A stretch of DNA of 64,000 nucleotides from Rhodovarius crocodyli (GTDB lineage Bacteria > Pseudomonadota > Alphaproteobacteria > Acetobacterales > Acetobacteraceae): the NCBI RefSeq assembly GCF_004005855.1, contig NZ_SACL01000005.1:124001-188000 (forward strand). Reading direction: 5' to 3'. Below the pieces are notes generated by a model. The model ran no database searches. It was not told the origin of the DNA and was given only the letters and a program-made list of their open reading frames with translations. Within the stretch, counting starts at the first letter, position 1; each line of letters begins with the position of its first letter. Position numbers and translations under genes: made by a program. Below are positions 16,807 through 37,151 of this stretch, piece by piece.

Positions 16807-16820
16807 ACCTGATATGAGTT

Positions 16821-16856: not shown

Positions 16857-16913
16857 TTATAATATCAACCAGAAAAGCCTTGGCAGGATCAGTGCCAACT
16901 CCCCGGGGTCCAG

Positions 16914-16934: not shown

Positions 16935-16966
16935 TGTCCAGAGGGCAGAGCCCACTGGTGGGGAGT

Positions 16967-20158: not shown

Positions 20159-21514
20159 ATGAGCGACCAGATGGCGGAAGAATTCATCCCGCCCCATCCG
20201 CCGCGCCTGGAAAAGCGCCCGTCCCTGCTGCGCAGCATCGCGCTGTTCCGGCGCAGCATGCTCGATGTCTGGATGAAGGGGCATTTCGCCTCTGACTTCT
20301 TCGCCACCAAGATCCTCCGGCGGCGGATCTTCGTGTGCAATTCGCCCGATACGGTGCGTGAGGCCTTCGTCGAGAAGGCCGAGACCTTCCACCGCAAATC
20401 CCCCCAGCAACGCTATGCGCTGGAGCCCCTGCTGGGCGACGGGCTGTTCGTCTCCGAGGGCGAGACCTGGCGCCAGCGCCGCCGCGCGGTCGCGCCCGTC
20501 ACCCATGCCTCCCGCATGCGGGAACTGGCGCCCGTGATGACGGAAGTCGCCGGCGAATGGGCCGATCGCTGGCGCGCCCTGCCCGACGGGGCCGAGATCG
20601 ACGCGCTGGAGGAAATGGCGCGCATGACCGCCGAGGTCATCTGCCGCACCCTGTTCGGCCGCGCGCTGGGCAGCGCCTCCGCCGAGACGGTGGTGCATGC
20701 CTTCTCCGCCTATCAGGCGCGGGTGGGCCAGACCGCGCTCGGCGCCATGCTGAACCTGCCCGAGGCGATCTCAAGCCTGCAGGGATTCGGCACCCGGCGA
20801 GAGGCACGGCGCATCCACGCCGTGCTGGATGAGCTGATCGCCGCCGTCCTCGCCGCCCCGGATGTGGGGGAGGCCTCGCTCGTCCGCGCCCTGTCCGCGC
20901 TGCAGGCCATGGAGCCCTGGGCCCTGCGCAACGAGGCCGCGACCCTGTTCATGGCCGGGCATGAGACCACGGCGAACACCATGGCCTGGTCCTGGTACCT
21001 GCTCTCACAGTCATCGGCCGATGCGCAGCGCCTGGCCGATGAGGCCAAGGCAGTGCTGGGCGGCCGCAGCGCCACGCTGGAGGATGTCGATTCGCTGCCC
21101 TTCGCCCGCGCGGTGATCGAGGAAAGCCTGCGCCTCTATCCGCCCGTGCCCGTCCTGGCGCGCGAGGCGCTGGAGGACGGCGAGTTGGCCGGCAGGCCGG
21201 TGCCCAAGGGCTCCCTGGTGCTGGTCGTGCCCTGGCTGCTGCACCGGAACCCGAAGCTGTGGGATGCGCCCGATACCTTCAGGCCGGCGCGCTTCCTCGA
21301 TGCCTCGCCGCCGCGCTACGGCTATGTGCCCTTCGCCATCGGGCCGCGCGTCTGCACCGGGCAGCAATTCGGCATGGTGGAGACGGTGATCTGCCTGGCG
21401 ACCCTGGCCCAGCATGCCGCCCCCAGGCTGAAACCCGGGCACAAGGTGGCCCCGGTCAGCCGGCTGACCCTGCGGCCGGGGGATGCGCTGCCGATGGTGA
21501 TGCGGAAGGCGTGA
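20159..21514 (+). CDS. Cytochrome P450
   Basis: A haem-thiolate monooxygenase of 451 residues. The I-helix oxygen-binding motif AGHETT is at 266-271, the K-helix ExxR (EESLR) at 321-325, and the haem loop FAIGPRVCTGQQFG carries the cysteine ligand C399. There is no N-terminal membrane anchor, so it is a soluble bacterial type. ATG 20159 has GGAGA 10-11 bases upstream. No ferredoxin or reductase gene is adjacent, so redox partners must be encoded elsewhere. Substrate unknown. Confidence 0.93.
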   Translation: MSDQMAEEFIPPHPPRLEKRPSLLRSIALFRRSMLDVWMKGHFASDFFATKILRRRIFVCNSPDTVREAFVEKAETFHRKSPQQRYALEPLLGDGLFVSEGETWRQRRRAVAPVTHASRMRELAPVMTEVAGEWADRWRALPDGAEIDALEEMARMTAEVICRTLFGRALGSASAETVVHAFSAYQARVGQTALGAMLNLPEAISSLQGFGTRREARRIHAVLDELIAAVLAAPDVGEASLVRALSALQAMEPWALRNEAATLFMAGHETTANTMAWSWYLLSQSSADAQRLADEAKAVLGGRSATLEDVDSLPFARAVIEESLRLYPPVPVLAREALEDGELAGRPVPKGSLVLVVPWLLHRNPKLWDAPDTFRPARFLDASPPRYGYVPFAIGPRVCTGQQFGMVETVICLATLAQHAAPRLKPGHKVAPVSRLTLRPGDALPMVMRKA

Positions 21515-21535
21515 CGCCGGGGCTTTGCCCCAGAC

Positions 21536-21661
21536 CCCGCCAGGACCGTAGCGGCCCGGTCAATAAAATGGCGCCCCACCTTCGCAGGCAGGGCGCCAAA
21601 CTTGTCTCGGTCCAGGACCGAGTTCGGTCCTGGCGGGGTCGTCAGGGGCAGCGCCCCTGAC
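21536..21661. repeat. Composite hairpin repeat between P450 and htrA (family B copy B2 plus others)
   Basis: From left to right it holds four elements. First is the 21-base arm at 21536-21556 (reverse complement of 16914-16934). Second is the 30-base family B palindrome at 21569-21598, with an 8-bp stem. Third is a hairpin CCAGGACCGA/TCGGTCCTGG at 21612-21633. Fourth is an exact copy of the 21-base hairpin found at 452-472 (here 21641-21661). It lies between the convergent ends of the P450 and htrA genes and contains no gene. Confidence 0.75.
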
Positions 21662-21704
21662 TGCTTTTCCCCACTGGGGGCTCCGGGGGCTAAGCCCCCG
21701 CCGT

Positions 21705-23309
21705 TTACCGCCCCAGCCGCAGCGGCACGAACCGCTGCCCGTTCTGGCTTTCCACCAGGAACAGCGCGGTGCCCCGGCCCTGGCGGCGCAGGCGTTCCAC
21801 CCGCTCCGTCAGTTCCTGCGGGGTGCCCACGCGTTCCTGCTGCACTTCCAGGATGATGTCGCCCGGGCGGATCTCACGCTCTGCGGCCGGCGAGTTCGGG
21901 GCCACTTCCACCACGGCCACGCCGCGCTGGTCGGGGCGCAGGCGCAGGCGCTCACGCAGTTCCGGCGTGATGCCGGCCACGCGCAGGCCAAGGCCCGTGA
22001 TCTCCGTGGGGCGGCCGGGCTGCGGCACGGCGCGCTGCTCGGCCGAGGCCAGCTGCTGCTCGGGCGGCAGTTCGCCCAGCGTGACGTTCACCGTCACCTC
22101 GCGCCCGTCGCGCCACAGCACCACCGGGGCACGGGTGCCGACGGAGGTCTCGGCCACGATGCGCGGCAGGCTGCGCATGTCGCGCACTTCCTGGTTGTTG
22201 AAGCGCAGCACCACGTCGCCGTTGCGGATGCCCGCCTCGGCCGCGGGCGTGCCTTCCTGCACGCGGGCCACCAGCGCACCGCGGGTGCCGTCGCGCAGGT
22301 TCAGGCTCTCGGCGATCTCGTCCGTCACCTGCTGGATGTTCACGCCCAGCCAGCCGCGACGCACGCGCCCGCCCTCGGCCAACTGCCGCGTGATGCCGCG
22401 CGCCAGGTTGGACGGGATGGAGAAGCCGATGCCGATGGAGCCGCCGCTCGGCGAATAGATGGCGGTGTTGATGCCCACCACCTCGCCGCGCATGTTGAAC
22501 AGCGGGCCACCGGAGTTGCCGCGGTTGATGGCCGCATCCGTCTGGATGAAGTCGTCGAAGGGGCCCTGGCGGATGTCACGGCCACGGGCCGAGACGATGC
22601 CCGCCGTCACGGTGCCGCCCAGGCCGAAGGGGTTGCCGATGGCCAGCACCCAGTCGCCCACCTCGGAAGTGTCGCTATCGCCCCAGGGGACGAAGGGCAG
22701 CGGCCGGTTGGCGCGCACGCGCAGCACCGCAAGGTCGGTGCGCGGGTCGGTGCCGATCAGCTCGGCGCGCAGCGTCGTGTTGTCCTGCAGGATCACGTTG
22801 ATCTCGCTGGCGCCGTCGATGACGTGGTTGTTCGTCACGACGATGCCCGAGGCATCGATGATGAAGCCCGAACCCAGAGAGTTGCCGCGACGGCCCTGCG
22901 GGCCGGGGGCGCCGGGGCCACCGGGGCCCTGGCTGCCCGGGCCCTGGCCGCCGGGGCCTTCATCGCCCGGGCGGTTCCGGTTGAAGAAGTCGCGGAAGAA
23001 TTCCTCGAAGGGGCTGCCTGGCGGGGCCTGGGGCATATCCGGCGCGTTGGGGCGGGCACCGGGCCCACCCGGACGCACCGGCGCGCCGCCGATGGTGGTG
23101 GAGACGTTGACCACCGCCGGCAGCAGCCGGCGCGCGAGCGGGGCGAAACTGTCGGGACGGCCGGCGGGCACGTTCTCCGCGCCGGCCGCCGGGGGGGCGG
23201 CTGCGGGGGGCACGGCGGGCGTGGCGGTCTGGGCCAGCACGGTGGGGGGCGAGAAGGCTGGGATAGCCAGGCTCGCGGCGAGAATGGCGGCGGAGAGACG
23301 CATGGGCAC
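21705..23309 (-). CDS. htrA: Periplasmic serine protease HtrA/DegP (Do family)
   Basis: A periplasmic protease and chaperone of 534 residues. It has a signal peptide at about 1-27, a trypsin-like domain with triad H162 (TNNHVIDG), D192 (DPRTDLAVL) and S266 (NRGNSGGPL), and then two PDZ domains. Between the signal region and the protease core, residues about 114-140 form a collagen-like Gly/Pro/Gln-rich linker, which is unusual in length. It lies downstream of hflK-hflC on the same strand, separated by a 130-base gap with a strong hairpin, so it may have its own promoter. Confidence 0.95.
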   Translation of the reverse strand: MPMRLSAAILAASLAIPAFSPPTVLAQTATPAVPPAAAPPAAGAENVPAGRPDSFAPLARRLLPAVVNVSTTIGGAPVRPGGPGARPNAPDMPQAPPGSPFEEFFRDFFNRNRPGDEGPGGQGPGSQGPGGPGAPGPQGRRGNSLGSGFIIDASGIVVTNNHVIDGASEINVILQDNTTLRAELIGTDPRTDLAVLRVRANRPLPFVPWGDSDTSEVGDWVLAIGNPFGLGGTVTAGIVSARGRDIRQGPFDDFIQTDAAINRGNSGGPLFNMRGEVVGINTAIYSPSGGSIGIGFSIPSNLARGITRQLAEGGRVRRGWLGVNIQQVTDEIAESLNLRDGTRGALVARVQEGTPAAEAGIRNGDVVLRFNNQEVRDMRSLPRIVAETSVGTRAPVVLWRDGREVTVNVTLGELPPEQQLASAEQRAVPQPGRPTEITGLGLRVAGITPELRERLRLRPDQRGVAVVEVAPNSPAAEREIRPGDIILEVQQERVGTPQELTERVERLRRQGRGTALFLVESQNGQRFVPLRLGR

Positions 23310-24321: not shown

Positions 24322-25538
24322 CGCGTCACCCCCGGGTTGCGGGTTTGCGGGATGAGCGCGGGGGCGGCGGTGGGCGCGGCCTGGCCGGGCACCGGGCCCG
24401 GCGCGCGGGCGGCCGGCGGCGTGCCGAGCTGCAGGAAGGGCACCACGCCCTGCAGCCGGTCATCCACCAGCACCACCGGGTTGCGGCGCAGGATCTCTTC
24501 CATGGTTTCCAGATAGATGCGGCGCGACGTCACGTCCTGCGCCTGGGTATAGGCCGTCAGAACGGCGGCGAAGCGGCCGGCCTCGCCTCGGGCACGGGCG
24601 ACCTGGCTGTCGCGGAAACCCTGGGCCTCCGCCAGCATGCGCTCGGCCTCACCACGCGCGCGGGGGATGATGTCGTTGCGATAGGCCTCGGCCTCGTTGC
24701 GCATGCGCTCGCGGTCGGCATTGGCGCGCTGCACGTCGCGGAAGGCATCGACCACGGCGTTCGGCGGGTCGACCTTCTGCATCTGGATCTGCACGATCTC
24801 GATACCCGCGCCGTACTGGTCCAGCACGGCCTGGGTGCCGCGACGGACATCCAGCTCGATCTGGGCGCGCGCCTCGGTCAGCGCGGCCTGGATGTTGGTG
24901 CGGCCGATCACCTCGCGCATCACCGATTCGGCGGCGGATTTCACCGTGTCGTCCGGGTTGCGGGTGTTGAACAGATAGTCGCTGGCATCGCGGATGCGCC
25001 AATGGATGGCGAAGTCGATGTCCACGATGTTCTCGTCGCCGGTCAGCATCAGCGATTCGGCGGCCACGTCGCGGGCATTGCCCATGCGGCCGGGCTGCAG
25101 CTGCTCGCCGCCCGCCCGGAAGCCGACATCGACGCGGTTGATGCGCGTCACGCGCGGGGTCGTCACGCTCTCGACCGGCCAGGGGATGGCGTAGTTCAGG
25201 CCCGGCTGCGCGGAACGGTTGTAGGCGCCGAAGCGCATCACCACGCCCAGCTCATCCGGCTGCACCCGATAGAAGCCCGAGGCGCCCCAGATCGCGACGA
25301 CGGCCACGGCCGCCAGCGCGACCATGCGACCGCCACCCGACCCGCGCGGAAGGAAACGACGGATGGTGTCCTGCAGCTGGCGTATTGCCTCCTCCAGGTC
25401 CGGTCCGGGGCCGCCGGGCGGGCGCTGGCCGCCACCTCCAGGCCCACCGTTCGGAGGGGGATTTCCCCAAGGCCCACCCTGATTGCCAGGAGGGCGCGGG
25501 CTGCCCCAGGGGCTCTGCCCGCCATCATTCCACGCCAT
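24318..25538 (-). CDS. hflK: FtsH modulator HflK
   Basis: Partner of HflC in the FtsH-HflKC complex; 406 residues. A Gly/Pro/Trp-rich cytoplasmic N-terminus (about 1-47) precedes a transmembrane helix at about 71-88. The SPFH domain follows, with DELGVVMRFGAYN and PGLNYAIPWPVE, then a coiled coil. ATG 25538 (MAWNDGGQ) is chosen from family alignment; an in-frame upstream start adds 18 unlikely residues. It is divergent from mrp across 208 bases. Confidence 0.95.
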   Translation of the reverse strand: MAWNDGGQSPWGSPRPPGNQGGPWGNPPPNGGPGGGGQRPPGGPGPDLEEAIRQLQDTIRRFLPRGSGGGRMVALAAVAVVAIWGASGFYRVQPDELGVVMRFGAYNRSAQPGLNYAIPWPVESVTTPRVTRINRVDVGFRAGGEQLQPGRMGNARDVAAESLMLTGDENIVDIDFAIHWRIRDASDYLFNTRNPDDTVKSAAESVMREVIGRTNIQAALTEARAQIELDVRRGTQAVLDQYGAGIEIVQIQMQKVDPPNAVVDAFRDVQRANADRERMRNEAEAYRNDIIPRARGEAERMLAEAQGFRDSQVARARGEAGRFAAVLTAYTQAQDVTSRRIYLETMEEILRRNPVVLVDDRLQGVVPFLQLGTPPAARAPGPVPGQAAPTAAPALIPQTRNPGVTR

Positions 25539-25746
25539 CTGCGTCGTTTTCTCCGCGAAGCCTGAGTAGTGAGGGCACCGGACGGCACCCAACGTGACAA
25601 AGAGTTTAGATTAGCCGACCGCAATGCGCCACCTGCCAAGGGGAACCCTGGGGGGGTGCGCTGCGACGCGCTTGCGTCCATATCTCTGCCGCGTCGGGGA
25701 TATTGCCCGGCATTACAGAGTTTTCAACGGAAGACGGACCCCGCCG

Positions 25747-26832
25747 ATGTCGGAACATGCGGTACGCCAGGCCCTGGCGCTGGTGAAGGACCCCGGAACG
25801 GGCAAAGGGCTGGTCGAGGCAGGCTTCGTCGAGGCGGTGCTGCTGCGCGACGGGCTGGTGCAGGTCACGCTCGCCGTCCCGCGCGAACGCGCGCGGGAAA
25901 TGGAAGCGGTGCGCGCCGCCGCCGAGGCCGCCGTGGGCGCCCTGCCCGGCGTGCTGTCCGCTACCGTGGTGCTGACGGCCCATAAGCCCGCCGCCGAGGC
26001 GCCCGCCAAGCCCGCCCCCGCAGGCCAGGGGGCGATGCTGATGCCGGGCGTGAAGCACATCGTGGCCGTCGCCTCCGGCAAGGGCGGGGTGGGCAAGTCC
26101 ACCACCGCGGTGAACCTGGCCGTCTCCCTTGCCGCGCAGGGGCTGCGCGTGGGGCTGCTGGACGCCGACATCTACGGCCCCTCCCTGCCGCAGATGCTGG
26201 GCACGCAGGAGAAGCCGCGCGTCGCCGCCAGCCGCATCCACCCGATCGACCGCTGGGGCCTGAAGGCCATGTCCATCGGCTTCCTGGTCGAGCAGGAAAC
26301 CCCCATGGTCTGGCGCGGCCCCATGGTCATGGGCGCGCTGGAACAGATGATGGGCCAGGTGGAGTGGGGCGACCTCGACATCATGGTCGTGGACATGCCG
26401 CCGGGCACCGGCGACGCGCAGCTGACCATGTCCCAGCGGGTGCCGCTGGCTGGTGCGGTCATCGTCTCCACGCCGCAGGACGTGGCGCTGATCGACGCCC
26501 GGCGCGGCGTGCGCATGTTCGAGAAGGTGAACGTGCCCGTGCTCGGCCTGATCGAGAACATGAGCTTCTACTGCTGCCCGAATTGCGGTCACCGCGCCGA
26601 CATCTTCGGCCATGGCGGGGCGGAGAAGGAAGCCGAGCGCCTCGGCACGGAGTTCCTGGGCGCGCTGCCGCTGAAGCTGGCGATCCGGGAACTGGCGGAT
26701 GCCGGCACGCCCATCGCGGCCGCCAAGCCCGACAGCGAGGAGGCCGGGCACTACCGCGCCATCGCGGCGCGGCTGTGGGGGAAGCTGAACGGGGAAGCGA
26801 AGCCGAGAGGGCCGAAGATCAGCTTCGAGTAA
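25747..26832 (+). CDS. mrp: Iron-sulfur cluster carrier ATPase Mrp/ApbC (NBP35 family)
   Basis: P-loop protein that carries and transfers Fe-S clusters; cytoplasmic. It has 361 residues. An N-terminal MIP18-like domain (1-75) joins through an Ala/Pro linker to the ATPase domain, with deviant Walker A GKGGVGKST at 111-119. The cluster-binding CxxC is C277-P-N-C280, and VVDMPPGTGD is family-typical. ATG 25747 is chosen from alignment; an upstream in-frame extension has no family similarity. It is convergent with the DUF599 gene, and the gap is filled by an AT-rich hairpin repeat. Confidence 0.95.
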   Translation: MSEHAVRQALALVKDPGTGKGLVEAGFVEAVLLRDGLVQVTLAVPRERAREMEAVRAAAEAAVGALPGVLSATVVLTAHKPAAEAPAKPAPAGQGAMLMPGVKHIVAVASGKGGVGKSTTAVNLAVSLAAQGLRVGLLDADIYGPSLPQMLGTQEKPRVAASRIHPIDRWGLKAMSIGFLVEQETPMVWRGPMVMGALEQMMGQVEWGDLDIMVVDMPPGTGDAQLTMSQRVPLAGAVIVSTPQDVALIDARRGVRMFEKVNVPVLGLIENMSFYCCPNCGHRADIFGHGGAEKEAERLGTEFLGALPLKLAIRELADAGTPIAAAKPDSEEAGHYRAIAARLWGKLNGEAKPRGPKISFE

Positions 26833-26833
26833 T

Positions 26834-26931
26834 GTTCTTTTTTGGAAAAAAGAACCAAAAAACTTTTGTGAGCTTTGGGCCTGCCTGAAACTCACAAAGT
26901 CTTTTTGCTTCTTTTTCTTCAGAAAAAGAAG
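26834..26931. repeat. AT-rich three-hairpin repeat, copy A2 (bidirectional terminator)
   Basis: Fills the 105 bases between the convergent stops of mrp and the DUF599 gene. H1 is GTTCTTTTTT-GG-AAAAAAGAAC (26834-26855, perfect). H2 pairs 26856-26876 with 26888-26907 (CAAAAAACTTTTGTGAG side), near-perfect. H3 is CTTCTTTTTC-TTCA-GAAAAAGAAG (26908-26931, perfect). Both strands present stems followed by T-runs, so it should stop transcription in both directions. Confidence 0.8.
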
Positions 26932-26937
26932 AATGCC

Positions 26938-27609
26938 TTACTGCGCCTGCAGCGCATCCCGCACCACCGAGCGGAACTCCCGCCGGTGGATCTCATACAG
27001 CACGAACAGGCTGGCGATGATCAACGCCACCGGGTGGATGATCCAGGCGAGCGCGGCCAGGCCGAAATAATAGCTGCGCAGGCCGGAATTGAAGTGCTTG
27101 GCGCCCCGGTTCACCACCCGCGCCGCCGCCTCGGCCCGCGCGATCGCCTGGGTGTCCACCGGCAGCCCCACCACCAGCGTGCTGGTGTAGTTGAACTGGC
27201 GGAACGCCCAGGTCAGCTCGAAGAAGGCGTTGATGAAGATCACGATCAGCACGCCGATCTTCACCTCCCACATCGCCTCGTTGGGCACCTCGCCCCAGGG
27301 CAGCGCCGCCACCACCCGCCGCCCCACATCGGGCGCCGCCAGCAGCGCCATCAGGCCGCCCAGGATGAAGATGGAGGTGGAGGCGAGGAAGGAGGTGGAG
27401 GACATCAGGTTGCCGATGGTCGCGATGTCCGCGATGCGGTTGTCCCGGCCCAGCGAGGCGATCATCCAACGCCGGCGATGCTCGTCCATCGCCGCGATCA
27501 CGCTGCGGGCGCGGATGCGCGGCATGCGGTCCACGACATAGGCGTAGACCACCCAGCACAGCACAAAGACCGCGAAGGCCAGCCAGTCGAGAAAGGTAAG
27601 CGGGGGCAT
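26938..27609 (-). CDS. DUF599 family membrane protein
   Basis: A 223-residue integral membrane protein of unknown function. Hydrophobic helices lie at about 6-25, 74-92, 118-136 and 185-205. The family's conserved stretches FLASTSIFILGG and HFNSGLRSYYFGLAALAW are visible. It stands alone between mrp and hpnH on the minus strand. No catalytic residues can be named. The family match is confident, the role unknown. Confidence 0.75.
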   Translation of the reverse strand: MPPLTFLDWLAFAVFVLCWVVYAYVVDRMPRIRARSVIAAMDEHRRRWMIASLGRDNRIADIATIGNLMSSTSFLASTSIFILGGLMALLAAPDVGRRVVAALPWGEVPNEAMWEVKIGVLIVIFINAFFELTWAFRQFNYTSTLVVGLPVDTQAIARAEAAARVVNRGAKHFNSGLRSYYFGLAALAWIIHPVALIIASLFVLYEIHRREFRSVVRDALQAQ

Positions 27610-27656
27610 GCCCTGGCTATAGCACAGGGGGGCGGCCGGCGCCCCCCTCCGGCGTG

Positions 27657-28835
27657 TTACTCCGCCGCCACCTGCTTGCCGCTGCCGCCATGCTTGGCGC
27701 CGCGCGCGGGCTCATGGGCGATGTCTTCCATCACCTTCTGCACATGGCCGCTGAACACGTATTCGGCCGGGCGCTGCTTGGTCAGGTCGATCTCGGGGGC
27801 CATCGGGCCCTCAGTGCGGGGGCCGCGGAACTGCGCGGTCAGCGCCTTGATCGGGTGCTTCAGCGCGTCGATCGCGGCCGTCGCCTCGAAGCCCGAATGG
27901 ACCATGCAATCGGCGCACTTCTCGTAGTTGCCGACGCCGTACTTGTCCCAGTCGGTGGTGTCCATCAGCTCCTGATAGGTCTTGGCATAGCCTTCACCCA
28001 GCAGATAGCAGGGGCGCTGCCAGCCGAAGATGTTGCGCGTCGGGTTGCCCCAGGGCGTGCAGTTGTAGGACTGGTTGCCGGCCAGGAAGTCCAGGAACAG
28101 CGGGCTGTTGCCCATGCGCCACTTGGCCTTGCCGCCCTTGGCGCCGGTGTTGCGCGACAGCACGTCGCGGAACAGCTCCTTGGTCGCCTGGCGGTTCAGG
28201 AAGTGCTTCTGGTCCGGCGCGCGCTCATAGGAATAGCCGGGGGACAGCATGATGTTGTCCACGCCCATCGCCGTCACGTCGTCGAAGAACTTCGCGGTGC
28301 GCTCGGCATCGGCGTTGTTGAACAGCGTGCAGTTGATGGCGGTGCGGAAGCCCTTGTCGCGCACCTTCTTCAGGGCCGCCACGGCGCGGTCGTACACGCC
28401 TTCCTGGCTCACGGCCCAGTCATGCTGGGCGCGGTCGCCATCCAGATGGATGTCCCAGATGAAGCGCGGGTGCGGCTTGTAGTCGTCCATGCGCTTTTCG
28501 AGCAGCAGGGCGTTGGTGCACAGGATCACGATGCGGCCCTGGTCGAGCAGGCCCTTCACGATCTCCGGCATTTCCTTGTGCAGCAGCGGCTCACCGCCCG
28601 CGATCGCCACCACCGGCGCGCCGCATTCCTCGGCGGCACCCAGGCTTTCCTCGACGGTGAGGCGCTTGTTCAGGATCTTGTCCGGATAATCGATCTTGCC
28701 GCAGCCGGCGCAGGCCAGGTTGCAGCGGAACAGCGGCTCCAGCATGAGGACGAGCGGGAAGCGCTTGCGCCCCGACAGCTGCTGCTTGAGCACATAGGCC
28801 GCGACCTTGGCCTGCTGAGAAAGAGGAATACCCAT
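27657..28835 (-). CDS. hpnH: Adenosyl-hopene transferase HpnH (radical SAM)
   Basis: Radical SAM enzyme that attaches the 5'-deoxyadenosyl group to diploptene, the first step to extended hopanoids. It has 392 residues. The [4Fe-4S] motif is C38-N-L-A-C42-A-G-C45. A C-terminal cysteine cluster (CADCMVHSG) precedes an accessory-domain tail. ATG 28835 (MGIPLSQQAK) with AGGAG 11 bases upstream is chosen; the frame extends further upstream without similarity. Divergent from copC-copD-hpnN, whose last gene is also hopanoid-related. Confidence 0.95.
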   Translation of the reverse strand: MGIPLSQQAKVAAYVLKQQLSGRKRFPLVLMLEPLFRCNLACAGCGKIDYPDKILNKRLTVEESLGAAEECGAPVVAIAGGEPLLHKEMPEIVKGLLDQGRIVILCTNALLLEKRMDDYKPHPRFIWDIHLDGDRAQHDWAVSQEGVYDRAVAALKKVRDKGFRTAINCTLFNNADAERTAKFFDDVTAMGVDNIMLSPGYSYERAPDQKHFLNRQATKELFRDVLSRNTGAKGGKAKWRMGNSPLFLDFLAGNQSYNCTPWGNPTRNIFGWQRPCYLLGEGYAKTYQELMDTTDWDKYGVGNYEKCADCMVHSGFEATAAIDALKHPIKALTAQFRGPRTEGPMAPEIDLTKQRPAEYVFSGHVQKVMEDIAHEPARGAKHGGSGKQVAAE

Positions 28836-28998
28836 CCGGCGGGTTGCTCCTGGAATCCTGGGTGCGAGACGGCACCGAAGTGCAGCCCTATAGCATGCGG
28901 CGCCGCAGCGCCAAACCTTCCCGCACATGGCCTTCCTGCAAGCTTTCGCAAGGTTTCTCCCCGTTGCACCTGCGCGGGGGCGACCCTAGTTTCCGCCC

Positions 28999-29379
28999 AT
29001 GCCCAAAATCGCCCGCCGCGCCGTGATGGCCTCTCCCTTCCTGCTGGCCGTTCCCGGCACCGCGCGGGCCCATGCGATTCTGCGGCGATCCGAGCCGGCG
29101 GCCGGGGCCACCGTGCCACCGGGGCCGCTTCGCATTCACATCCTGTTCAACAGCCGCATCGACCACGAGCGCAGCCAGATCCTGATCGCCCCTGCCCGGC
29201 GCGGCGGCGGCGGCACGGCCGATGAGGTGCGGGTGGAGCTGGAAGCAGGCCTTCCCGCCACGGAAATGGCCGGCACCACCCAGCCCCTGGCACCGGGCAA
29301 CTGGCGCTTCCGCTGGCAGGTGCTGGCGCTGGACGGGCACATCACCCGCGGCGACGTCCTGTTCACCGTGGCGGCCTGA
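28999..29379 (+). CDS. copC: CopC-like periplasmic copper-binding protein
   Basis: A small periplasmic copper-binding beta-barrel protein of 126 residues. The signal peptide ends TARA, and cleavage before H25 would give the mature protein an N-terminal histidine. With D112 and H114 in LDGHITRGD, this reproduces the Cu(II) His-brace site known for CopC. It is 6 bases upstream of the copD-like gene. Function in copper uptake or tolerance is inferred from the family. Confidence 0.85.
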   Translation: MPKIARRAVMASPFLLAVPGTARAHAILRRSEPAAGATVPPGPLRIHILFNSRIDHERSQILIAPARRGGGGTADEVRVELEAGLPATEMAGTTQPLAPGNWRFRWQVLALDGHITRGDVLFTVAA

Positions 29380-29385
29380 CGCCTC

Positions 29386-31059
29386 GTGGAGCTGTTCCTC
29401 GACCTCTACGGCTTCCTCTCGGTGGTGCTGCGGGCGCTGGCGCTAATCGCGCGCAGCGTCACCATCGGCACGCTGTTCTACATCCTTCTGCTGGCGACGC
29501 CGCTCGCGGCCCGATTCCAGCCGGGCGACTCCGCGCTGATGCTCGATTCGGCGCGCCGCATCGGGCTGCGGGCCGGCTGGGTCACGCTGGGCGCCACGCT
29601 GCTGGCGGTCTCGCTGGGGCTGGTCGCGCTGATGGGCTCGCTCGATGTCGGGCTGGCGCAGGCGCTGGGTGCGGGTTTCGCGCTCTCGGGTGCCGGGGTG
29701 CTGGGCTTCACGGTGCTGGCCATGCTGGCGCTGCTGCCGCATGGCGCGCCGGGCGGTCCGCGCATGGCGGTGCTCGGGCTGGCGGCCCTCGGCATGCTGG
29801 CCTCCGCCGCGCTGGGCAGCCACGCCATGGCGCGTGAGGAAGCGCGCGGGCCCATGCTGCTGGCCACCTTCCTGCACCAGATGGGTGCCGCGCTGTGGCT
29901 GGGCGGGCTGCCTGCCTTCATGGCGGCGCTGCGGCTGGGCTGGGCGCCGGCGGCCGCGCAGGCCGTGGGCACGCGTTATTCCGGGCTGGCGGCCGCAGGC
30001 GTGCTCTGCATCATCGGCGGCATCATCGGTTTCTACCTGGGTTATATCGGCACGCCCGAGGGGCTGTACGGCACCGCCTATGGCGCCATGAGCCTGACCA
30101 AATCCGCCCTGATGGGCTTCCTGCTGCTGCTGGGCCTCGGCAATTTCCTGCTGCTGCACCATTTCGCCCGCGGCCATGCGGCCACCGTGCTGCCCCGCGT
30201 CCGCCGCTTCGTCGAATGCGAGATGATCGCGGGCATCTGCATCTTCGGCATCGCCGCCAGCCTGACCAGCGTGCCGCCCGCCGTGGACCTGCCCGACGAC
30301 CGCGTGGAGTGGCACGAGATCGTCGACCGCTTCACCCCCCAGGCCCCGCGCCTGGTCTCGCCCAACCACGAGGATCTCGCGATCCCGAACCTGCAGGCGC
30401 AGCTGGACGCCGAATACCAGGCCCGCCAGGCGCCGGACCGCCCGCAGGCCTTCATCCCCGGCGAGGGGCTGCTGCCGCCGCGCAACGCCTTCGACCTGGC
30501 CTGGAGCGAGTACAACCACAACATCGCGGGCTTCATCGTGCTGGCCGTGGGCCTCGCGGCCCTGCTGGACGCCACGCGCCGGGTGCCATTGGCCCGGCAC
30601 TGGCCCTTGCTGTTCATGGGCCTCGCTGTGTTTCTGTTCCTGCGATCGGACCCCGAGGCCTGGCCCATGGGCCAGATCTCCTTCCTCGATTCGCTGCGTG
30701 ACCCGGAGGCGTTGCAGCACAAGCTGCTCTCCTTCCTGGTGGTGATCTTCGCGGTGTCGGAATGGCTGGTGCGGCTCTCGGGCAAGCGCACGGCGGCCGC
30801 CTATGTCTTTCCGCTCTCGATGGCGGCCGGCGGCTTCCTGCTGCTGGCGCATACCCACGCCATCGCCAATATCCGCGAGGCGCTGCTGGTCGAGCTCTCG
30901 CACCTGCCGCTGGGTGCGGCCGCCGTGGTCGCGGCCTGTGCCCGCTGGGTGGAACTGCGCAGCGAGCCGGACGGCTGGCTGGCGCGCCTCGGCCGCTGGA
31001 CCTGGCCCTGCTGCCTCATCTTCATCAGCCTGATCCTGATCTTCTACCGTGAAGCCTGA
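29386..31059 (+). CDS. copD: CopD-like copper transport membrane protein (long form)
   Basis: A 557-residue polytopic membrane protein, much longer than a minimal CopD of about 300 residues. The N-terminal half (about 10 to 300) carries the CopD-type helices, with GSHAMA, FLHQMGAALWLGGL and HHFARGHA supplying candidate copper-binding histidines. A soluble stretch (about 305-375) precedes a second group of about five helices. Start is GTG 29386, 6 bases after copC. The C-terminus overlaps the hpnN start by 11 bases, implying one operon. Confidence 0.8.
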   Translation: MELFLDLYGFLSVVLRALALIARSVTIGTLFYILLLATPLAARFQPGDSALMLDSARRIGLRAGWVTLGATLLAVSLGLVALMGSLDVGLAQALGAGFALSGAGVLGFTVLAMLALLPHGAPGGPRMAVLGLAALGMLASAALGSHAMAREEARGPMLLATFLHQMGAALWLGGLPAFMAALRLGWAPAAAQAVGTRYSGLAAAGVLCIIGGIIGFYLGYIGTPEGLYGTAYGAMSLTKSALMGFLLLLGLGNFLLLHHFARGHAATVLPRVRRFVECEMIAGICIFGIAASLTSVPPAVDLPDDRVEWHEIVDRFTPQAPRLVSPNHEDLAIPNLQAQLDAEYQARQAPDRPQAFIPGEGLLPPRNAFDLAWSEYNHNIAGFIVLAVGLAALLDATRRVPLARHWPLLFMGLAVFLFLRSDPEAWPMGQISFLDSLRDPEALQHKLLSFLVVIFAVSEWLVRLSGKRTAAAYVFPLSMAAGGFLLLAHTHAIANIREALLVELSHLPLGAAAVVAACARWVELRSEPDGWLARLGRWTWPCCLIFISLILIFYREA

Positions 31060-33637
31060 TACCTACGTCTCCCGCGCTGTCGCCGCCCTGGTCGGCTTCA
31101 GCCTGCGTCATGCCAAGCTCATGGTGCTCGCCTATGTCGTGCTCACCGTGGGTGCGGGCTGGCTGACGGCCACCCGCTTCCAGCTCACCTCCGACGTGTC
31201 GCTGCTGTTCCCGCAGGATCTGGCCTGGCGCCAGACGGAACGCGCGCTGTCCCAGGCCTTCCCCCGGCGCGACGACCTGATCGCCGTCGTGGTGGATGGC
31301 CCAACGGGTGCCGCCGCCGACCGCGCGGCCGAGGAACTGGCCACCCGGCTGCGCGCCCGGCAGGACCTGTTCCGGGTGGTCCGCCGCCCGGATGCCGGCC
31401 CCTTCTTCGAGCGCAGCGCGGGCCTGTTCCTGGACCTGCCCGAGGTCCAGTCCCTCGCGGACCGACTGATCGAGGCGCAGCCCCTGCTGGGCACGCTGGC
31501 GGCCGACCCGTCCATCCGTGGCGTGGCCGACCTGCTGCGCACCGCCATGGAGGGGGTATCGCGCGGCGACACCACGCTGGAGCCGCTGGCCGGCCCGCTC
31601 TCGGCCTTCGCGCGCTCCGCCGAGGCCGCGCTGCGCGGTGAGGTCTCCGAACCCGACTGGACCCGGATGATGACCGGCCGCGAGCCCGGATCGCTGGAGA
31701 CACGGCGCTTCGTGCTGGTGCAGCCGGTGCTGGATTTCTCGCACCTTGCCGCCGGCGGCAGCGCGACGGATGCCATCAGGGCCGCCGCGGCGCCGCTGAT
31801 GCTGAACGGGGTGGACATCCGCCTCACGGGCGGCGTGCCGATGGCCGATGAGGAGTTTTCCACCCTCTCGGAAGGCGCGGTCGAGAATGTCGTGCTGTCT
31901 CTGGGCTTCACCGTGCTGCTGCTGTGGATGGCGCTGCGCAGCTGGCGGCTGATCCTGCCGCTGATGGCCCTGGTGGTGGCCGGGCTGTTCTGGACGGCCG
32001 CCTTCGGCGTGCTGGCGGTGGGGCGGTTCAACCCGCTGTCGATCGCCTTCGCCGTGCTGTTCATCGGGCTCGGCGTGGATTTCGGCATCCAGTTCTCCGT
32101 GCAGTATCGCGCGGAGCGCAAGGCCGCCGGCGCCCTGGCCCCTGCCCTGATGCAGGCCGCGCGCGTGGCGGGCCCCGGCATGACGCTGGCCGCCATGTCC
32201 TGCACCCTGTCCTTCTTCGCCTTCATCCCCACCGAGTATCTGGGCGTGCGGGAGCTGGGGCTGATCTCGGGCGTCGGCATGCTGATCGGCTGGCTGATGG
32301 CCATGACGCTGCTGCCCGCCCTGATGCTGCTGATGAAGCCGGAGGCCGAGGGCCGCGAGGTGGGCTATCCGGGCTTCGCGCCACTCGATGCCTTCCTGTT
32401 GCGGCGGTCCAAGGCGGTGACGGGCTTCGCCGCGCTGCTGGCCGTGGCCTGCATCGCCATCCTGCCCTGGCTGCGTTTCGACACCGACCCCATCAACCTG
32501 CGTGACCCGGGCAAGGAATCGGTCAGCACCTTCATCGAGCTGATGAACAGCATCGATACCAACCCCAACACGCTGGACGCGCTGGCGCCGAACCTGGACG
32601 CCGCCCAGGCCCTGGCCCGCCGGCTGGAGGCCCTGCCCGAGGTCGGCCGCGTGCTGACCCTGCGCAGCTTCATCCCGGAACAGCAGCCCGAGAAGCTGGC
32701 CATCATCCAGGATGCGGCCATGCTGATCGGCCCGACCCTGGCCACCCCGCCGGGCCCCGCGCCCAGCGATGCCGATGTGGCGGCCGCGCTGTCCCGTGCC
32801 GGGGCCGCGTTGCACGGGGCCCAGGGCGACAGCCAGGCCGCGCGCGATGCCCGCCGGCTGGGTGCCGCCTTCATCCGGCTGGCCGATGCCCACCCGTCGC
32901 AGCGGGAGGCCCTGTCCCTGGCCCTGCTGCCCGGGCTGCGCACCACGCTGCGGCAGGTCAATGCGCTGCTCTCGGCGCAGGAGGTCACGCTGGAAAGCCT
33001 GCCGGCCGACCTGCGCGCCGACTGGATCGCGGCCGATGGCCGCGCGCGCGTCGAGATCGCGCCCCGCATCCAGGGCCATAACGGCGATGCCATGCGCGCC
33101 TTCGCCAACGCCGTGCAGCGCGTGGCCCCCGAGGCCAGCGGTGCCGCCATCTCCACGGCCGCTTCCTCCGAGACGGTGCAGAAGGCCTTCCTGGTGGCGG
33201 GCGTCATCGCCGTGGTGGCGGTGCTGGCGCTGCTGGTGGTGCAGCTGCGCAGCCTGAAGCTGTCGCTGCTGGCCATCGCGCCGCTGGCCATCGCCGGGCT
33301 GATGACCCTGGCCCATTGTGCGCTATTCGGCCCGGACCTGAACCTGGCCAACATCATCGCCCTGCCGCTGCTGTTCGGCATGGGGGTCGCCTATGACATC
33401 TACTACGTCACGGCCTGGGTGCGCGGCGAACGCAACCTGCTGGCCAGCCCCCTGAACCGCGCGGTGATCTATTCCGCCGTGACCAACGCCACGGCCTTCG
33501 GGGCGCTGGCCATCTCGCCGCACCCCGGCACGGCCAGCATGGGCGTGGTGCTGGGCGTGTCGCTGATCTACTCGCTGGGCTGCGTGATGCTGCTGCTGCC
33601 GGCGATGCTGGCGGTGTTCGTGAAGACTGAAAGATGA
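31049..33637 (+). CDS. hpnN: Hopanoid transporter HpnN (RND/MMPL family)
   Basis: An RND-type inner-membrane protein that moves hopanoids toward the outer membrane in Rhodopseudomonas and Burkholderia. It has 862 residues. An N-terminal helix (about 22-42) and a large periplasmic domain are followed by a first helix cluster (about 275-435), a second periplasmic domain and a second cluster (about 712-860). The sterol-sensing-like segment SIAFAVLFIGLGVDFGIQFS is typical. Start GTG 31049 lies inside the end of copD. Confidence 0.9.
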   Translation: MKPDTYVSRAVAALVGFSLRHAKLMVLAYVVLTVGAGWLTATRFQLTSDVSLLFPQDLAWRQTERALSQAFPRRDDLIAVVVDGPTGAAADRAAEELATRLRARQDLFRVVRRPDAGPFFERSAGLFLDLPEVQSLADRLIEAQPLLGTLAADPSIRGVADLLRTAMEGVSRGDTTLEPLAGPLSAFARSAEAALRGEVSEPDWTRMMTGREPGSLETRRFVLVQPVLDFSHLAAGGSATDAIRAAAAPLMLNGVDIRLTGGVPMADEEFSTLSEGAVENVVLSLGFTVLLLWMALRSWRLILPLMALVVAGLFWTAAFGVLAVGRFNPLSIAFAVLFIGLGVDFGIQFSVQYRAERKAAGALAPALMQAARVAGPGMTLAAMSCTLSFFAFIPTEYLGVRELGLISGVGMLIGWLMAMTLLPALMLLMKPEAEGREVGYPGFAPLDAFLLRRSKAVTGFAALLAVACIAILPWLRFDTDPINLRDPGKESVSTFIELMNSIDTNPNTLDALAPNLDAAQALARRLEALPEVGRVLTLRSFIPEQQPEKLAIIQDAAMLIGPTLATPPGPAPSDADVAAALSRAGAALHGAQGDSQAARDARRLGAAFIRLADAHPSQREALSLALLPGLRTTLRQVNALLSAQEVTLESLPADLRADWIAADGRARVEIAPRIQGHNGDAMRAFANAVQRVAPEASGAAISTAASSETVQKAFLVAGVIAVVAVLALLVVQLRSLKLSLLAIAPLAIAGLMTLAHCALFGPDLNLANIIALPLLFGMGVAYDIYYVTAWVRGERNLLASPLNRAVIYSAVTNATAFGALAISPHPGTASMGVVLGVSLIYSLGCVMLLLPAMLAVFVKTER

Positions 33638-33639
33638 AT

Positions 33640-33726
33640 GTTCTTTTCTATAAAAAAGAACCAAAAAATTTTTGATTATTAAAACCCACAAAAGTCTTTT
33701 TGCTTCTTTTTCTGCAGAAAAAGAAG
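33640..33726. repeat. AT-rich three-hairpin repeat, copy A3
   Basis: Occupies the gap between the convergent stops of hpnN and apaG. H1 pairs 33640-33647 with 33654-33661 (loop CTATAA region). H2 is a degenerate CAAAAAATTTTTG...GTCTTTTTG stem. H3 is CTTCTTTTTC-TGCA-GAAAAAGAAG (33703-33726, perfect). Same order as copy A2. Confidence 0.75.
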
Positions 33727-33732
33727 ATTCCT

Positions 33733-34140
33733 TTAATGCACCCCGTGCGGCTCATGTGGTGAATCCAGGCTGAAGGCGGGGATCACCACATCGAAGGGCT
33801 CGCCGCTGCCGGTATCCACCATGTGGTACATGCCGCGCATGAAGCCCGAGGGCGTCGCGAGCGGCGTGCCGGAGGTGTATTCGAAGGCCTCTCCGGGTTC
33901 GAGCACCGGCTGTTCGCCCACCACCCCGTCGCCGTGCACGCGCTGCTGGCGGCCCTGGCCGTCGGTGATCAGCCAGGTGCGCTTCAGCAACTGCGCCGTG
34001 GCGGTGCCGCCATTCACGATCCGCACCCGATAGGCCCAGACGAACTGGCCCTTTTCCGGCTCCGACTGGTCCTCCAGGTAGAAGGCCTGGACGGAGACGG
34101 TGATGCCGCGCGTGGTGGCGGTGAAGCTGGGTGCCGCCAT
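33733..34140 (-). CDS. apaG: ApaG protein
   Basis: A single fibronectin III-like domain protein of 135 residues. In Salmonella (CorD) it is linked to Co2+/Mg2+ efflux; the biochemical role is open. Family-typical stretches are FVWAYRVRIVNGG, LLKRTWLITDG, GVVGEQPVLEPGEAFEYTSG and GFMRGMYHM. ATG 34140 is 2 bases after the stop of the LysE-type gene, so it is probably translated from the metZ-lysE-apaG message. The upstream in-frame extension of the reading frame is not used. Confidence 0.92.
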   Translation of the reverse strand: MAAPSFTATTRGITVSVQAFYLEDQSEPEKGQFVWAYRVRIVNGGTATAQLLKRTWLITDGQGRQQRVHGDGVVGEQPVLEPGEAFEYTSGTPLATPSGFMRGMYHMVDTGSGEPFDVVIPAFSLDSPHEPHGVH

Positions 34141-34142
34141 GG

Positions 34143-34754
34143 TCAGGCCCGCCGCATGGCCGCGGTGGCGACACCCGCGCCGATCAGCGCGGAACCACCC
34201 AGCCGGTTGAACCAGCGCCGCACCCCCGGCCGCGTGACGGCGCCGGAGAGGCGCCCGGCCAGCAGCGCATAGGCCAGCGCATTCACCGCCGCCAGGCTGA
34301 CGAAGGTGGCGACCAGCACCACCGCCTGCGGCAGGAAGGGCGCCCCCGCATCCACGAACTGCGGGACGAAGGCCACGAAGAAGGCGATGGATTTCGGGTT
34401 CAGCGCCGTCACGACATAGGCATCGCGCATCGCGCGCCGCCCGGTCATGGGCGGCACGGCGCCCGCCGTGACGGGCGCGCGCCACAGCTTCACGCCCAGC
34501 CACACCAGATAGGCCGCCCCCGCCCATTTGAAGGCGGTGAACAGCAGGGCGGAGGCGGCCATGACCGCCCCCAGCCCCGCCAGGGACAACGACATGGCCG
34601 TGAGATCCCCGAGCGCGACCCCGGCCACCAGCGGCAGCGCATGCCGCCGCCCAGCGCCGAGCGACTGGCCGATCACCAGCAGGATGGTCGGGCCGGGAAT
34701 GGCCAGCATCACCAGCGTGGCGGCGACGAAGCCGGCCCAGGTCTCAAGGCTCAT
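34143..34754 (-). CDS. LysE/RhtB family amino acid exporter
   Basis: A 203-residue inner-membrane exporter with about six helices. The N-terminal family motif AIPGPTILLVIGQSLGAGRRHAL and the central ALNPKSIAFFVAFVPQF are clear. It lies 4 bases behind metZ, so export of methionine, homoserine or a related metabolite is plausible, but family members vary widely in substrate. Likely part of a riboswitch-controlled metZ-lysE-apaG transcription unit. Confidence 0.88.
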   Translation of the reverse strand: MSLETWAGFVAATLVMLAIPGPTILLVIGQSLGAGRRHALPLVAGVALGDLTAMSLSLAGLGAVMAASALLFTAFKWAGAAYLVWLGVKLWRAPVTAGAVPPMTGRRAMRDAYVVTALNPKSIAFFVAFVPQFVDAGAPFLPQAVVLVATFVSLAAVNALAYALLAGRLSGAVTRPGVRRWFNRLGGSALIGAGVATAAMRRA

Positions 34755-34758
34755 GTGT

Positions 34759-35970
34759 TCACTCCGCGGCGAGCGCGACCGGTGAGGCCGCGTCCAGCGC
34801 CTCGGCCAGGTCGTCGATCAGGTCGGCCACATCCTCCAGCCCCACCGAGAGGCGCACGGCACCGTCGGAGATGCCGAGCTTCGCCCGCTCCTCCGCGCCG
34901 ATGCGCAGATGGGTGGTGGTGGCGGGGTGCGTCACCATGGACTTGCTGTCGCCCAGGTTGTTGCTGATATCGATGATGCGCAGCGCGTCCATGAAGCGGA
35001 AGGCCGCCTCCTTGCCGCCCTTCAGCTCCAGCGCCACGAGGGTGCCGCCGCCGCTCATCTGCTTCAGCGCGAGGGCATGCTGCGGGTGGTCGGTGCGGGT
35101 CGGGTAGGCGACGCGGGCGATCTCGGCGCGCTCGGACAGGAAATCGGCGATGGCGGCGGCCGACTTGGACATGGCGTCCACGCGCAGCTTCATCGTCTCC
35201 AGACCCTTCAGGATCACCCAGGCGTTGAAGGGCGACAGGCCGGGGCCGGTGTTGCGCACGAAGGGCTGCAGCACGTCATTGACCCACTTCTTGTTGGACA
35301 GCACGGCGCCGCCCAGCACGCGGCCCTGGCCGTCCATATGCTTGGTGCAGGAATAGGTGACGACGTCCGCGCCCAGCTCCAGCGGCTTCTGCAGCAGGGG
35401 CGTCGCGAACACGTTGTCCACCACGACCAGGGCGCCTGCGGCATGCGCCAGCTCGGACACGGCGCTGATGTCCACCAGGTCCAGCATCGGGTTGGACGGG
35501 CTTTCCAGCAGCACGATGGCGGTGGGCTTGGACAGCGCCGCCTTCCACTGCGCCAGGTCGCCGCCATCCACGAACTCATGCGTGATGCCATAGCGGCCGA
35601 GCAGGTTCGCCACGATCCAGTGGCAGGACCCGAACAGCGCGCGGGATGCCACCACATGGTCGCCGGTCTTGAGGTGGGACAGCATCGCGGCATGGACCGC
35701 CGCCATGCCGGTCGCGGTCAGCCGGCAGGCTTCCGCGCCTTCCAGCGCGCAGAGACGGTCTTCCAGCATGGTCAGCGTCGGGTTGCCGAAGCGCGAATAC
35801 TGGTAGTGCTCGATGCGGTTCTCGAAGGTGTCCTCGGCCTGGCCGGCGGTGTCATAGACGAAGCCGGAGGTCAGGTAGGGGATTTCCGCCGTCTCGCCAT
35901 GGTTGGAACGCAGCGTGCCGCCGCGGACCAGCAGGGTTGCGGGGCGAAGGGGACGATCGGGAAGTGCCAT
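34759..35970 (-). CDS. metZ: O-succinylhomoserine sulfhydrylase MetZ
   Basis: PLP enzyme that makes homocysteine from O-succinylhomoserine and sulfide; cytoplasmic. It has 403 residues. The cofactor lysine is K210 in SCTKHMDGQGR; YQYSRFGNPT and ATGMAAV are conserved substrate and cofactor segments. GAGGC lies 6 bases upstream of the ATG. An SAM-II riboswitch lies about 65-155 bases upstream, so it should be shut off when S-adenosylmethionine is plentiful. The family also includes cystathionine synthases, but the riboswitch and the sequence favour MetZ. Confidence 0.93.
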   Translation of the reverse strand: MALPDRPLRPATLLVRGGTLRSNHGETAEIPYLTSGFVYDTAGQAEDTFENRIEHYQYSRFGNPTLTMLEDRLCALEGAEACRLTATGMAAVHAAMLSHLKTGDHVVASRALFGSCHWIVANLLGRYGITHEFVDGGDLAQWKAALSKPTAIVLLESPSNPMLDLVDISAVSELAHAAGALVVVDNVFATPLLQKPLELGADVVTYSCTKHMDGQGRVLGGAVLSNKKWVNDVLQPFVRNTGPGLSPFNAWVILKGLETMKLRVDAMSKSAAAIADFLSERAEIARVAYPTRTDHPQHALALKQMSGGGTLVALELKGGKEAAFRFMDALRIIDISNNLGDSKSMVTHPATTTHLRIGAEERAKLGISDGAVRLSVGLEDVADLIDDLAEALDAASPVALAAE

Positions 35971-36039
35971 GGGTGCCTCAAATCTCGAACGGGCGTCCGG
36001 CCCCCAGATGGTGAGGGGGCGAGGCGGAGCATAGCCCCG

Positions 36040-36125
36040 CTTCGGCCTGTTTAGCGCGTTTGTTTTTTAAGCCACCCCCTGGGAGATGACAGCTCGCCGC
36101 AAGCTGGCCGGACAAATCGCGAGCG
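36040..36125 (-). promoter_or_regulatory. SAM-II (SAM-alpha) riboswitch with an inserted hairpin
   Basis: On the minus strand, P1 is GCTCGC (36124-36119) paired with GCGAGC (36097-36092). Loop GATTTG (36118-36113), GCTTGC (36104-36099), TTAAAAAACAAA and GCTAAA (36055-36050) match the class core in the right order. CGGCC (36111-36107 region) can pair with GGCCG (36047-36043). Between P1 and the TTAAA segment are about 20 extra bases that fold as GTCATCTC/GGGGTGGC. Downstream hairpins GCGGGGC/GCTCCGC and GCCCCC/GGGGGC precede the metZ ribosome binding site. Confidence 0.85.
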
Positions 36126-36224
36126 GGCGCATGAAGCCCCCAGGGGCAGGCGGCGTCAAGGGTGCCCCCTTCATGCCAGCCGCGCATTGGGGAATGATGC
36201 GCGAAACGCCAGGAGGGAAACGCC

Positions 36225-37151
36225 ATGCACCACACCGTCGCCGTGATCGGCTCGGGCCTGATCGGGTCCAGCTGGGCCACGCTGTTCCTGGCCGCCGGGC
36301 TGAAGGTGCGCGCGAGCGACCCGGCCCCGGGCGCCGAGGCGCGCATGCGCGCCTTCATCACCGATGCCTGGCCCGCCATGCAGGCGCTGGGGATGGACAA
36401 GGTGGGGCTGGAAGCCGGTCTCTCGGCGCTGAGCTTCCATGCGGCGCCCGAGGAAGCGGCGCGGGGCGCCGGCTTCGTGCAGGAAAACGCACCCGAGCGG
36501 CTGGAGATCAAGCGCCAGACCTATGCCGCGATCGAGGCCACCCTGGCGCCCGACGCGATCATCTCCTCCTCGACCAGCGGCATCATGCCGAGCGACCTGC
36601 AGGCGGGCATGAAACACCCCGAGCGGCTGGTGGTGGGCCACCCCTTCAACCCGCCGCACCTGATCCCGCTGGTGGAGGTAGTGCCGGGCCGGGCCACGTC
36701 GGAGGCCACGGTCGAGGCCGCGCTCGCCTTCTACCGCGCCATCGGCAAGGTCGCGATCCGCGTGCGGAAGGAGGTGGTGGGCCATGTCGCCAATCGCCTG
36801 CAGGCCGCCGTGTGGCGAGAGGCGGTGCATCTGGCCAAGGAAGGCGTGGCGTCGGTCGAGGATATCGATCTCGCGGTCTCGGCCGGGCCGGGGCAGCGCT
36901 GGTCCATCATGGGGCCCAGCAAGACCTTCAGCCTGGCCGGCGGCCCCGGGGGCGTGGAGCATTTCCTGGACCATCTGGGCCCGGCCATGGAGAGCTGGTG
37001 GGCCGATCTGGGCACGCCGCGCATCGACGAGGCCGCCCGGAAGATCCTGATTGAGGCCTTCGGCAAGCCGGATGCCGAGGCGTTCCGCCGCATGGTTGCC
37101 TGGCGGGATGCGGCCCTGCTGCGGCGGTTGAAGGCGCTGGCCGAGGATTAG
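36225..37151 (+). CDS. 3-hydroxyacyl-CoA dehydrogenase / L-carnitine dehydrogenase-like protein
   Basis: An NAD-dependent dehydrogenase of 308 residues. The N-terminal Rossmann motif is VIGSGLIGSSWATLF. The substrate-domain signature GHPFNPPHLIPLVEVVPG and SSSTSGIMPSDL are typical of the carnitine dehydrogenase, lambda-crystallin and hydroxybutyryl-CoA dehydrogenase group. GGAGG precedes the ATG. It is divergent from metZ, about 100 bases from the riboswitch, and alone in its operon. The sequence does not distinguish among carnitine, gulonate or acyl-CoA substrates. Confidence 0.8.
   Translation: MHHTVAVIGSGLIGSSWATLFLAAGLKVRASDPAPGAEARMRAFITDAWPAMQALGMDKVGLEAGLSALSFHAAPEEAARGAGFVQENAPERLEIKRQTYAAIEATLAPDAIISSSTSGIMPSDLQAGMKHPERLVVGHPFNPPHLIPLVEVVPGRATSEATVEAALAFYRAIGKVAIRVRKEVVGHVANRLQAAVWREAVHLAKEGVASVEDIDLAVSAGPGQRWSIMGPSKTFSLAGGPGGVEHFLDHLGPAMESWWADLGTPRIDEAARKILIEAFGKPDAEAFRRMVAWRDAALLRRLKALAED

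Follow-up and report, generated by a model that had tools for sequence, protein, structure and literature searches.

What is an AT-rich element of three hairpins doing at the ends of genes in a GC-rich alphaproteobacterial genome, in several copies and in both orientations? The question is raised by a 64,000-nt stretch of Rhodovarius crocodyli DNA (hereafter referred to as the window), in which two outer hairpins, H1 and H3, enclose a central hairpin. The original prediction took the element to be a mobile or duplicated bidirectional terminator.

Copies in the window and across the genome

All three full copies proposed for the window, the last of them inverted, are present (Table 1). Exact patterns match the window three times for H3 and four times for H1, and have no match in 100 shuffles each; copies 1 and 3 are 94% complementary across 99 nt. 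As had been noticed, the element is AT-rich in GC-rich surroundings, with 25-35% GC compared with 69% for the window. The partial copy near the start of the window, described as H1 plus half of the second hairpin, does contain H1, but it extends further than claimed, and continues into the CAAAAAACTTTTG arm and a centre of another kind. The other partial copy is indeed one hairpin, which ends directly before a convergent stop codon.

Table 1. Positions of full, partial and solo forms of the element in the window
Feature	Position	Strand	Components
Full copy 1	26834-26931	+	H1 26834-26855, central hairpin 26856-26907, H3 26908-26931
Full copy 2, short centre	33640-33726	+	H1 33640-33661, central hairpin 33662-33702, H3 33703-33726
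Full copy 3, inverted	40257-40354	-	H3 40257-40280, central hairpin 40281-40332, H1 40333-40354
Half copy	1313-1399 (approximate)	+	H1 1313-1334, CAAAAAACTTTTG arm, different GC-rich centre, without H3
Solo outer-type hairpin	54982-55007	+	between convergent stop codons 54972 and 55008

The claim that convergent genes flank four of the five, with the fifth behind dnaJ, was borne out. By Pfam, copy 1 is preceded at 1 nt by the stop codon of a ParA/NUBPL-type NTPase gene and followed at 6 nt by that of a convergent DUF599 gene, copy 2 lies between convergent MMPL and ApaG-domain genes, copy 3 between convergent genes for a LysR-type regulator and a penicillin-binding protein, and the solo hairpin between those for a membrane transport protein and an NAD-dependent epimerase. 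The half copy is located directly downstream of dnaJ (minus strand, DnaJ assigned by Pfam) and reaches the dnaJ stop codon; its T-tract is on the side away from dnaJ, and the arm that would be the T-tract is retained. An Rfam search of the window returned no match at the gathering score, and at E ≤ 1 the four loci searched gave sub-gathering matches alone, mostly to models for microRNA precursors and for a plastid psbA 3'UTR.

In the whole genome (G000; 5.27 Mb in 48 contigs), a model built from 37 copies (R1) gave 144 matches over both strands. With the loci placed in register by an HMM, these amount to at least 77 copies, a lower bound that includes two half copies (L034 and L036). In the consensus, GTTCTTTTTTgtAAAAAAGAAC-CAAAAAACTTTTG and AAAGTCTTTTTG-CTTCTTTTTCTtCAGAAAAAGAAG stand before and after a centre of 8-86 nt. 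Identity between copies is 94% and 96% in the two arms and 46% in the centres, compared with 42% for shuffled centres (600 random pairs; the set of 73 copies omits the half copies and the decayed copies L039 and L241). The most similar centres are those of copies 1 and 3 of the window (86%), which means that copies have been duplicated.

Fold of the element and its place at gene ends

Across genera, the three local hairpins are paired in 97.4% of cells among 57 diverse copies. Compensatory changes were found in 15 of the 31 pairs and 36 cells, compared with 2.7 and 3.2 in shuffles, none of 500 of which scored as high, and this signal vanishes when the partners are slid. A second set of 58 copies, which overlaps the first in many rows and has some visibly misaligned ones, gave 13 pairs and 51 cells versus 4.5 and 8.7 in shuffles. 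The covariation argues that selection acts on the structure of the element, whether as RNA or as single-stranded DNA. The initial view that conserved stems and variable loops reflect such selection holds in this respect, but the outer arms are kept in sequence too, and it is the centre that is hypervariable.

Individual copies illustrate the pairing. The feet of the palindromes are GTTC/GAAC or CTTC/GAAG, with TTTC/GAAA and others in some genera. Six copies read in genome G087 have GTTC/GAAC, CTTC/GAAG or TTTC/GAAA at the foot of the second hairpin, paired every time, and among five H1 hairpins read in genome G031, three are paired with different feet (TTTC/GAAA, CGTC/GACG and GGTC/GACC) and two are imperfect. 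The centre folded better than its shuffled versions (z < -1) in 25 of 37 cases and not better in the other 12. We rejected a single long hairpin as the selected fold: it has compensatory changes in 5 pairs and 8 cells versus 4.2 and 5.4 in shuffles (176 and 33 of 500 as high, respectively), and in 52 of the 54 rows that could be read, its outermost positions do not pair.

For gene context, genes were called with a home-made codon-usage finder trained on the window, so that starts are rough while stops come from the sequence. The original prediction expected copies to be rarer inside genes and in divergent gaps, and this is what we found: 47 of the 77 copies lie in convergent gaps, 29 in co-directional ones, one in a divergent gap and none inside genes. 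The count at convergent pairs versus other sites, which had been proposed as a check, likewise came out in its favor, since convergent gaps make up only 11 of the window's 54 gene gaps (Fisher p = 6e-6). The element is also tight against stop codons. In 74 full copies, the gene-facing ends have a median distance of 5 nt from the stop codon, with 91 of 119 within 8 nt, the longer gaps (15 of 119, those above 14 nt) reaching at most 253 nt, and no negative gap; both gaps are within 14 nt in 38 of the 45 full copies between convergent genes. Where copies lie between co-directional genes (29), the end toward the upstream gene is H1 in 16 and H3 in 13, so neither end is favored. A plasmid of Pseudoroseomonas cervicalis, annotated independently, has a copy at a distance of 6 nt from where a FAD-binding oxidoreductase gene ends.

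Such closeness could also reflect a role in the mRNA just past the stop codon, in which the hairpins slow ribosome release or protect the 3' end and termination is secondary. This explanation would fit the 104 of 119 gene-facing ends that are at most 14 nt away from a stop codon, and ribosome stalling is reported for Escherichia coli REPs positioned within 15 nt of one (a passage of PMC12306157, citing earlier work). We nevertheless regard it as improbable: the stop-adjacent hairpin is AT-rich and hence probably weak, and neither the convergent preference nor the equal use of both ends needs an effect on translation.

Termination in both directions as a candidate function

We think it somewhat likelier than otherwise that the element acts in Acetobacteraceae as an intrinsic transcription terminator, dispersed and working in both directions, a reading suggested by its position, its use in both orientations, its covarying local hairpins and its T-rich stretches. 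Read on either strand, the order would be the same: the stop codon and the near outer hairpin come first, followed by an A-tract and the central hairpin, and the far outer hairpin then supplies the T-tract with its left arm. RNA polymerase arriving from either side would pass the stop codon and the near outer hairpin (22-24 nt), and the central hairpin would form; the polymerase would then meet the broken T-tract of the far outer hairpin (TCTTTTTGCTTCTTTTTC in one direction, TTTTTTGGTTCTTTTTT in the other) and release. The near outer hairpin would also act as a spacer, such that a ribosome paused on the stop codon would be unable to cover the foot of the central hairpin. Each outer hairpin would presumably be the spacer for one direction and the T-tract for the other. 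This double role would account for the closeness to stop codons, because a spacer hairpin would allow it to sit a few nt past a stop codon and to bridge the gap between convergent genes. Copies may then be retained at gene ends through the benefit of termination.

In E. coli, the ribosome represses a terminator near the stop codon, with maximal activity beyond 27 nt (as stated in part of PMC4824070). From the stop codon to the foot of the central hairpin, the element has at least 23 nt, with a median of 27 on the H1 side and 29.5 on the H3 side. When measured to the AT-rich foot, the distance is 27 nt or more at 56% of H1-side and 74% of H3-side ends; when the 7-nt AT-rich foot is excluded, it is at least 27 nt at all ends.

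We scanned 40 of the 75 full copies for a hairpin with a T-rich tail, and found one on 27 of 40 plus strands and 32 of 40 minus strands, versus 4 of 20 copies after shuffling. Under tighter limits (energy ≤ -8, tail of at least 4), 0 of 40 plus strands and 5 of 40 minus strands were retained, few passing because the T-tails are interrupted. Further, a simple terminator scan of positions 25000-44000 gave 8 sites versus 7.9 expected, which is not above chance; it picked out copy 3 on the minus strand and H3 of copy 2, while copy 1 was left unmarked.

Similar to known bidirectional intrinsic terminators, the element can be read on both strands as A-tract, hairpin and candidate T-tract, and occurs in convergent gaps. 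Its structure is preserved by compensatory change, as is that of bidirectional terminators in Bacillus cereus (described in a section of PMC5381666). It differs from them in being a family of repeats whose two ends each add a hairpin, whose arms are conserved across genera and whose T-tracts are interrupted.

A terminator selected for one direction would be predicted to lose the arm that a co-directional setting does not need. This decay was not seen among the 29 co-directional copies, in which the unneeded arm is worse in 8, better in 9 and tied in 12, with 0.45 changes in near arms and 0.59 in far arms, and we rejected selection as a one-way terminator on this ground. As both arms are equally conserved in one-way settings, termination alone is insufficient as an explanation. 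The arms are, besides, nearly the same letter for letter in different genera, whereas the centres vary freely. Some additional constraint on the arms is thus indicated, for which the candidates are two-way use everywhere, a recent spread accompanied by homogenisation, and a trans-acting factor.

Spread among relatives and likeness to REPINs

Among nine genomes of the genus, the model matched 144 times in G000, 12 times in G002 (at six places) and not at all in the other seven, with all first-look candidates scored in six of these and 150 of 266 in the seventh (G001). Copy number is thus uneven between close species, at about 77, 6 and 0. In a sample of the Acetobacteraceae, at least 117 of 397 genomes, representing 37 of 102 genera, contain a match; nine candidates were scored per genome, so the genome count is a lower bound and the number of matches within a genome is capped. 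When 30 low-scoring genomes of the family were searched again, many gave 1-3 rows over both strands, and three gave many more (65 in G009, 87 in G096 and 123 in G087). The H3 motif was found, among the matches listed, in Gluconacetobacter species, Roseomonas sp. GC11, Pseudoroseomonas aestuarii and Neokomagataea thailandica, and in MAGs labelled Rhodovastum atsumiense and Asaia bogorensis. In a class-wide sample, 3 of 385 genomes matched, two of them in Acetobacteraceae and the third a weak outsider (E = 2.4e-4) that does not have the same arms.

In G087, some copies (L296, L339-L343) are symmetric, with the same hairpin at either end and equal scores on both strands, and are possibly the ancestral form. 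An UNVERIFIED Microviridae record from cattle blood (MG945182.1, L325:601-634) contains, at 97% identity over 34 nt, H1 and the A-tract arm, behind which comes an inverted repeat rich in GC; its element may be a contamination or a chimera.

We compared sites between G000 and G002. The gene pair around copy 2 (33640) is present in G002 without the element, and its aligned stop codons are 6 nt apart instead of 95 nt; the further relatives read lack the gene pair, so this presence/absence does not distinguish gain from loss. Two sites are shared (L022/L040 and L231/L246), with nearly the same arms and different centres. At two others (L251 and L265), G002 has GC-rich palindromes where G000 has the three-hairpin element, as if the two kinds replace each other at gene ends. 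The flanks of one G002 copy (L243:3342-3439) match those of two different G000 copies (L228 and L019), a sign of recombination between copies. The Gluconacetobacter-like genomes G220 and G251 are more than 99% identical over most shared loci and uninformative on turnover.

Other repeats also occur in convergent gaps of the window. Sets of GC-rich hairpins at 16751-16984 and 21514-21705 have a 38-nt palindrome in common, in inverted orientation (16817-16854 and 21565-21602); the GC-rich palindromes of G002 at the sites of L251 and L265 resemble them. The segment 37136-37313, reaching into the convergent gap 37151-37307, matches at least nine places in G002 and one more in G000 at 76-78% identity, and is apparently another interspersed repeat, commoner in G002.

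By hand count over the stretches compared, synteny with G002 is broken at 8 of 12 elements versus about 8 of 54 other junctions (p = 6e-4). We do not take the elements as the cause of rearrangement, as 3 of 4 element-free convergent junctions are also broken (p = 1.0; a count that omits two more in a segment missing from G002), and convergent boundaries alone can account for the breaks.

An alternative, which we consider possible but rather unlikely, is a REPIN-like replicating element whose inverted arms are recognised by a candidate trans-acting enzyme and whose spacer need only fold, copies at gene ends being harmless or incidentally terminating. REPINs are REP doublets that form hairpins and are linked to RAYT Y1 transposases (according to excerpts of PMC3116915). 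Like these, the element has two conserved, inverted, self-folding ends around a less conserved paired spacer, in many extragenic copies, and the same excerpts describe compensatory spacer changes and a clover fold. The arm and centre identities and the folding centres given above follow this layout, and the near letter-identity of the arms between genera, the lineage-specific centres, the uneven copy number, the retention of both arms in one-way settings and the presence/absence at 33640 would all fit it. On the other side, no match to PF01797 (Y1/RAYT) was found in G000 or G002, although positive controls including E. coli were detected. PF01797 is present in 4 of 13 element-bearing genomes versus 0 of 14 others (p = 0.04), a weak association, seven of the 14 being classed as element-free from the survey of nine candidates per genome; the element is missing from all four PF01797 loci fetched (about 3 kb each). 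We therefore rejected membership in the REPINs themselves. Further, the arms are AT-rich with T-tracts, and their hairpins start with GTTC or CTTC instead of GTAG or CGTC. While REPINs are described as random in extragenic space (PMC3116915, same excerpts), the element is mostly in convergent gaps, abutting stop codons on both sides, which is unexpected for random insertion.

The element resembles GTAG/CGTC-tagged REPs in its preference for convergent and co-directional gaps downstream of coding regions (a passage of PMC3733652, which also lists Acetobacteraceae among families without CGTC repeats). It is unlike them in that its arms are without the tag tetranucleotide, the palindrome feet being those given above. 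Lichenicola cladoniae is a member of the Acetobacteraceae. It is reported to have 1,369 REPs (a passage of PMC12306157), among which the element may be counted.

No target-site duplication was found: none of 75 copies has a direct repeat of 5 nt or more at its ends, and repeats of 1-4 nt occurred as in shuffled pairing. This is unlike a MITE of a DDE transposon and counts against the REPIN-like alternative as well; C or T precedes H1 in 71 of these copies and A follows H3 in 68. Of the original phrase of a mobile or duplicated bidirectional terminator, we uphold the repetition, the position suited to two-way termination and the stretches rich in T that follow the central hairpin on either strand. 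Termination and transposition themselves are candidate properties, the latter with neither a target-site duplication nor a Y1/RAYT gene found in this genome and with one clear presence/absence site.

A role at the DNA level, as a cruciform, a protein site between converging units or an uptake signal that also forms terminators, seems very improbable to us. The copies are AT-rich palindromes, frequently in convergent gaps, and inverted pairs of a repeated motif, the uptake signals of Neisseria and Pasteurellaceae, form terminator-like hairpins (part of PMC1852404). The element is unlike these signals in its much longer conserved unit and far fewer copies, about 77 when full elements are counted and solo short motifs are left outside the count, versus at least 1,000 for uptake signals according to that source; besides, 29 of the 77 copies are co-directional.

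Four exact arm strings occur in no paper of the PMC open library, and we recognised no description of the element among the top matches listed in the open-access literature. RIME and AIME are further repeats of Alphaproteobacteria. We tentatively refer to the element as a dispersed, REPIN-like two-way terminator of Acetobacteraceae. A bolder proposal, which we offer as doubtful speculation, is that an arm-recognising factor other than RAYT copies or homogenises the element behind stop codons, such that a single replicating terminator, working both ways and bringing a ribosome spacer of its own, would serve gene ends across the family.

If the element terminates transcription, a part of about 100 nt would end two genes together and carry its own ribosome spacer, and it may be useful as a two-way terminator in acetic acid bacteria and allow ribosome-terminator interference to be tested cleanly. 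If a trans-acting factor maintains its arms, the element would replicate in the manner of a REPIN but without the RAYT enzyme to which REPINs are linked, and that factor may be traceable by comparing the close species that differ so widely in copy number.
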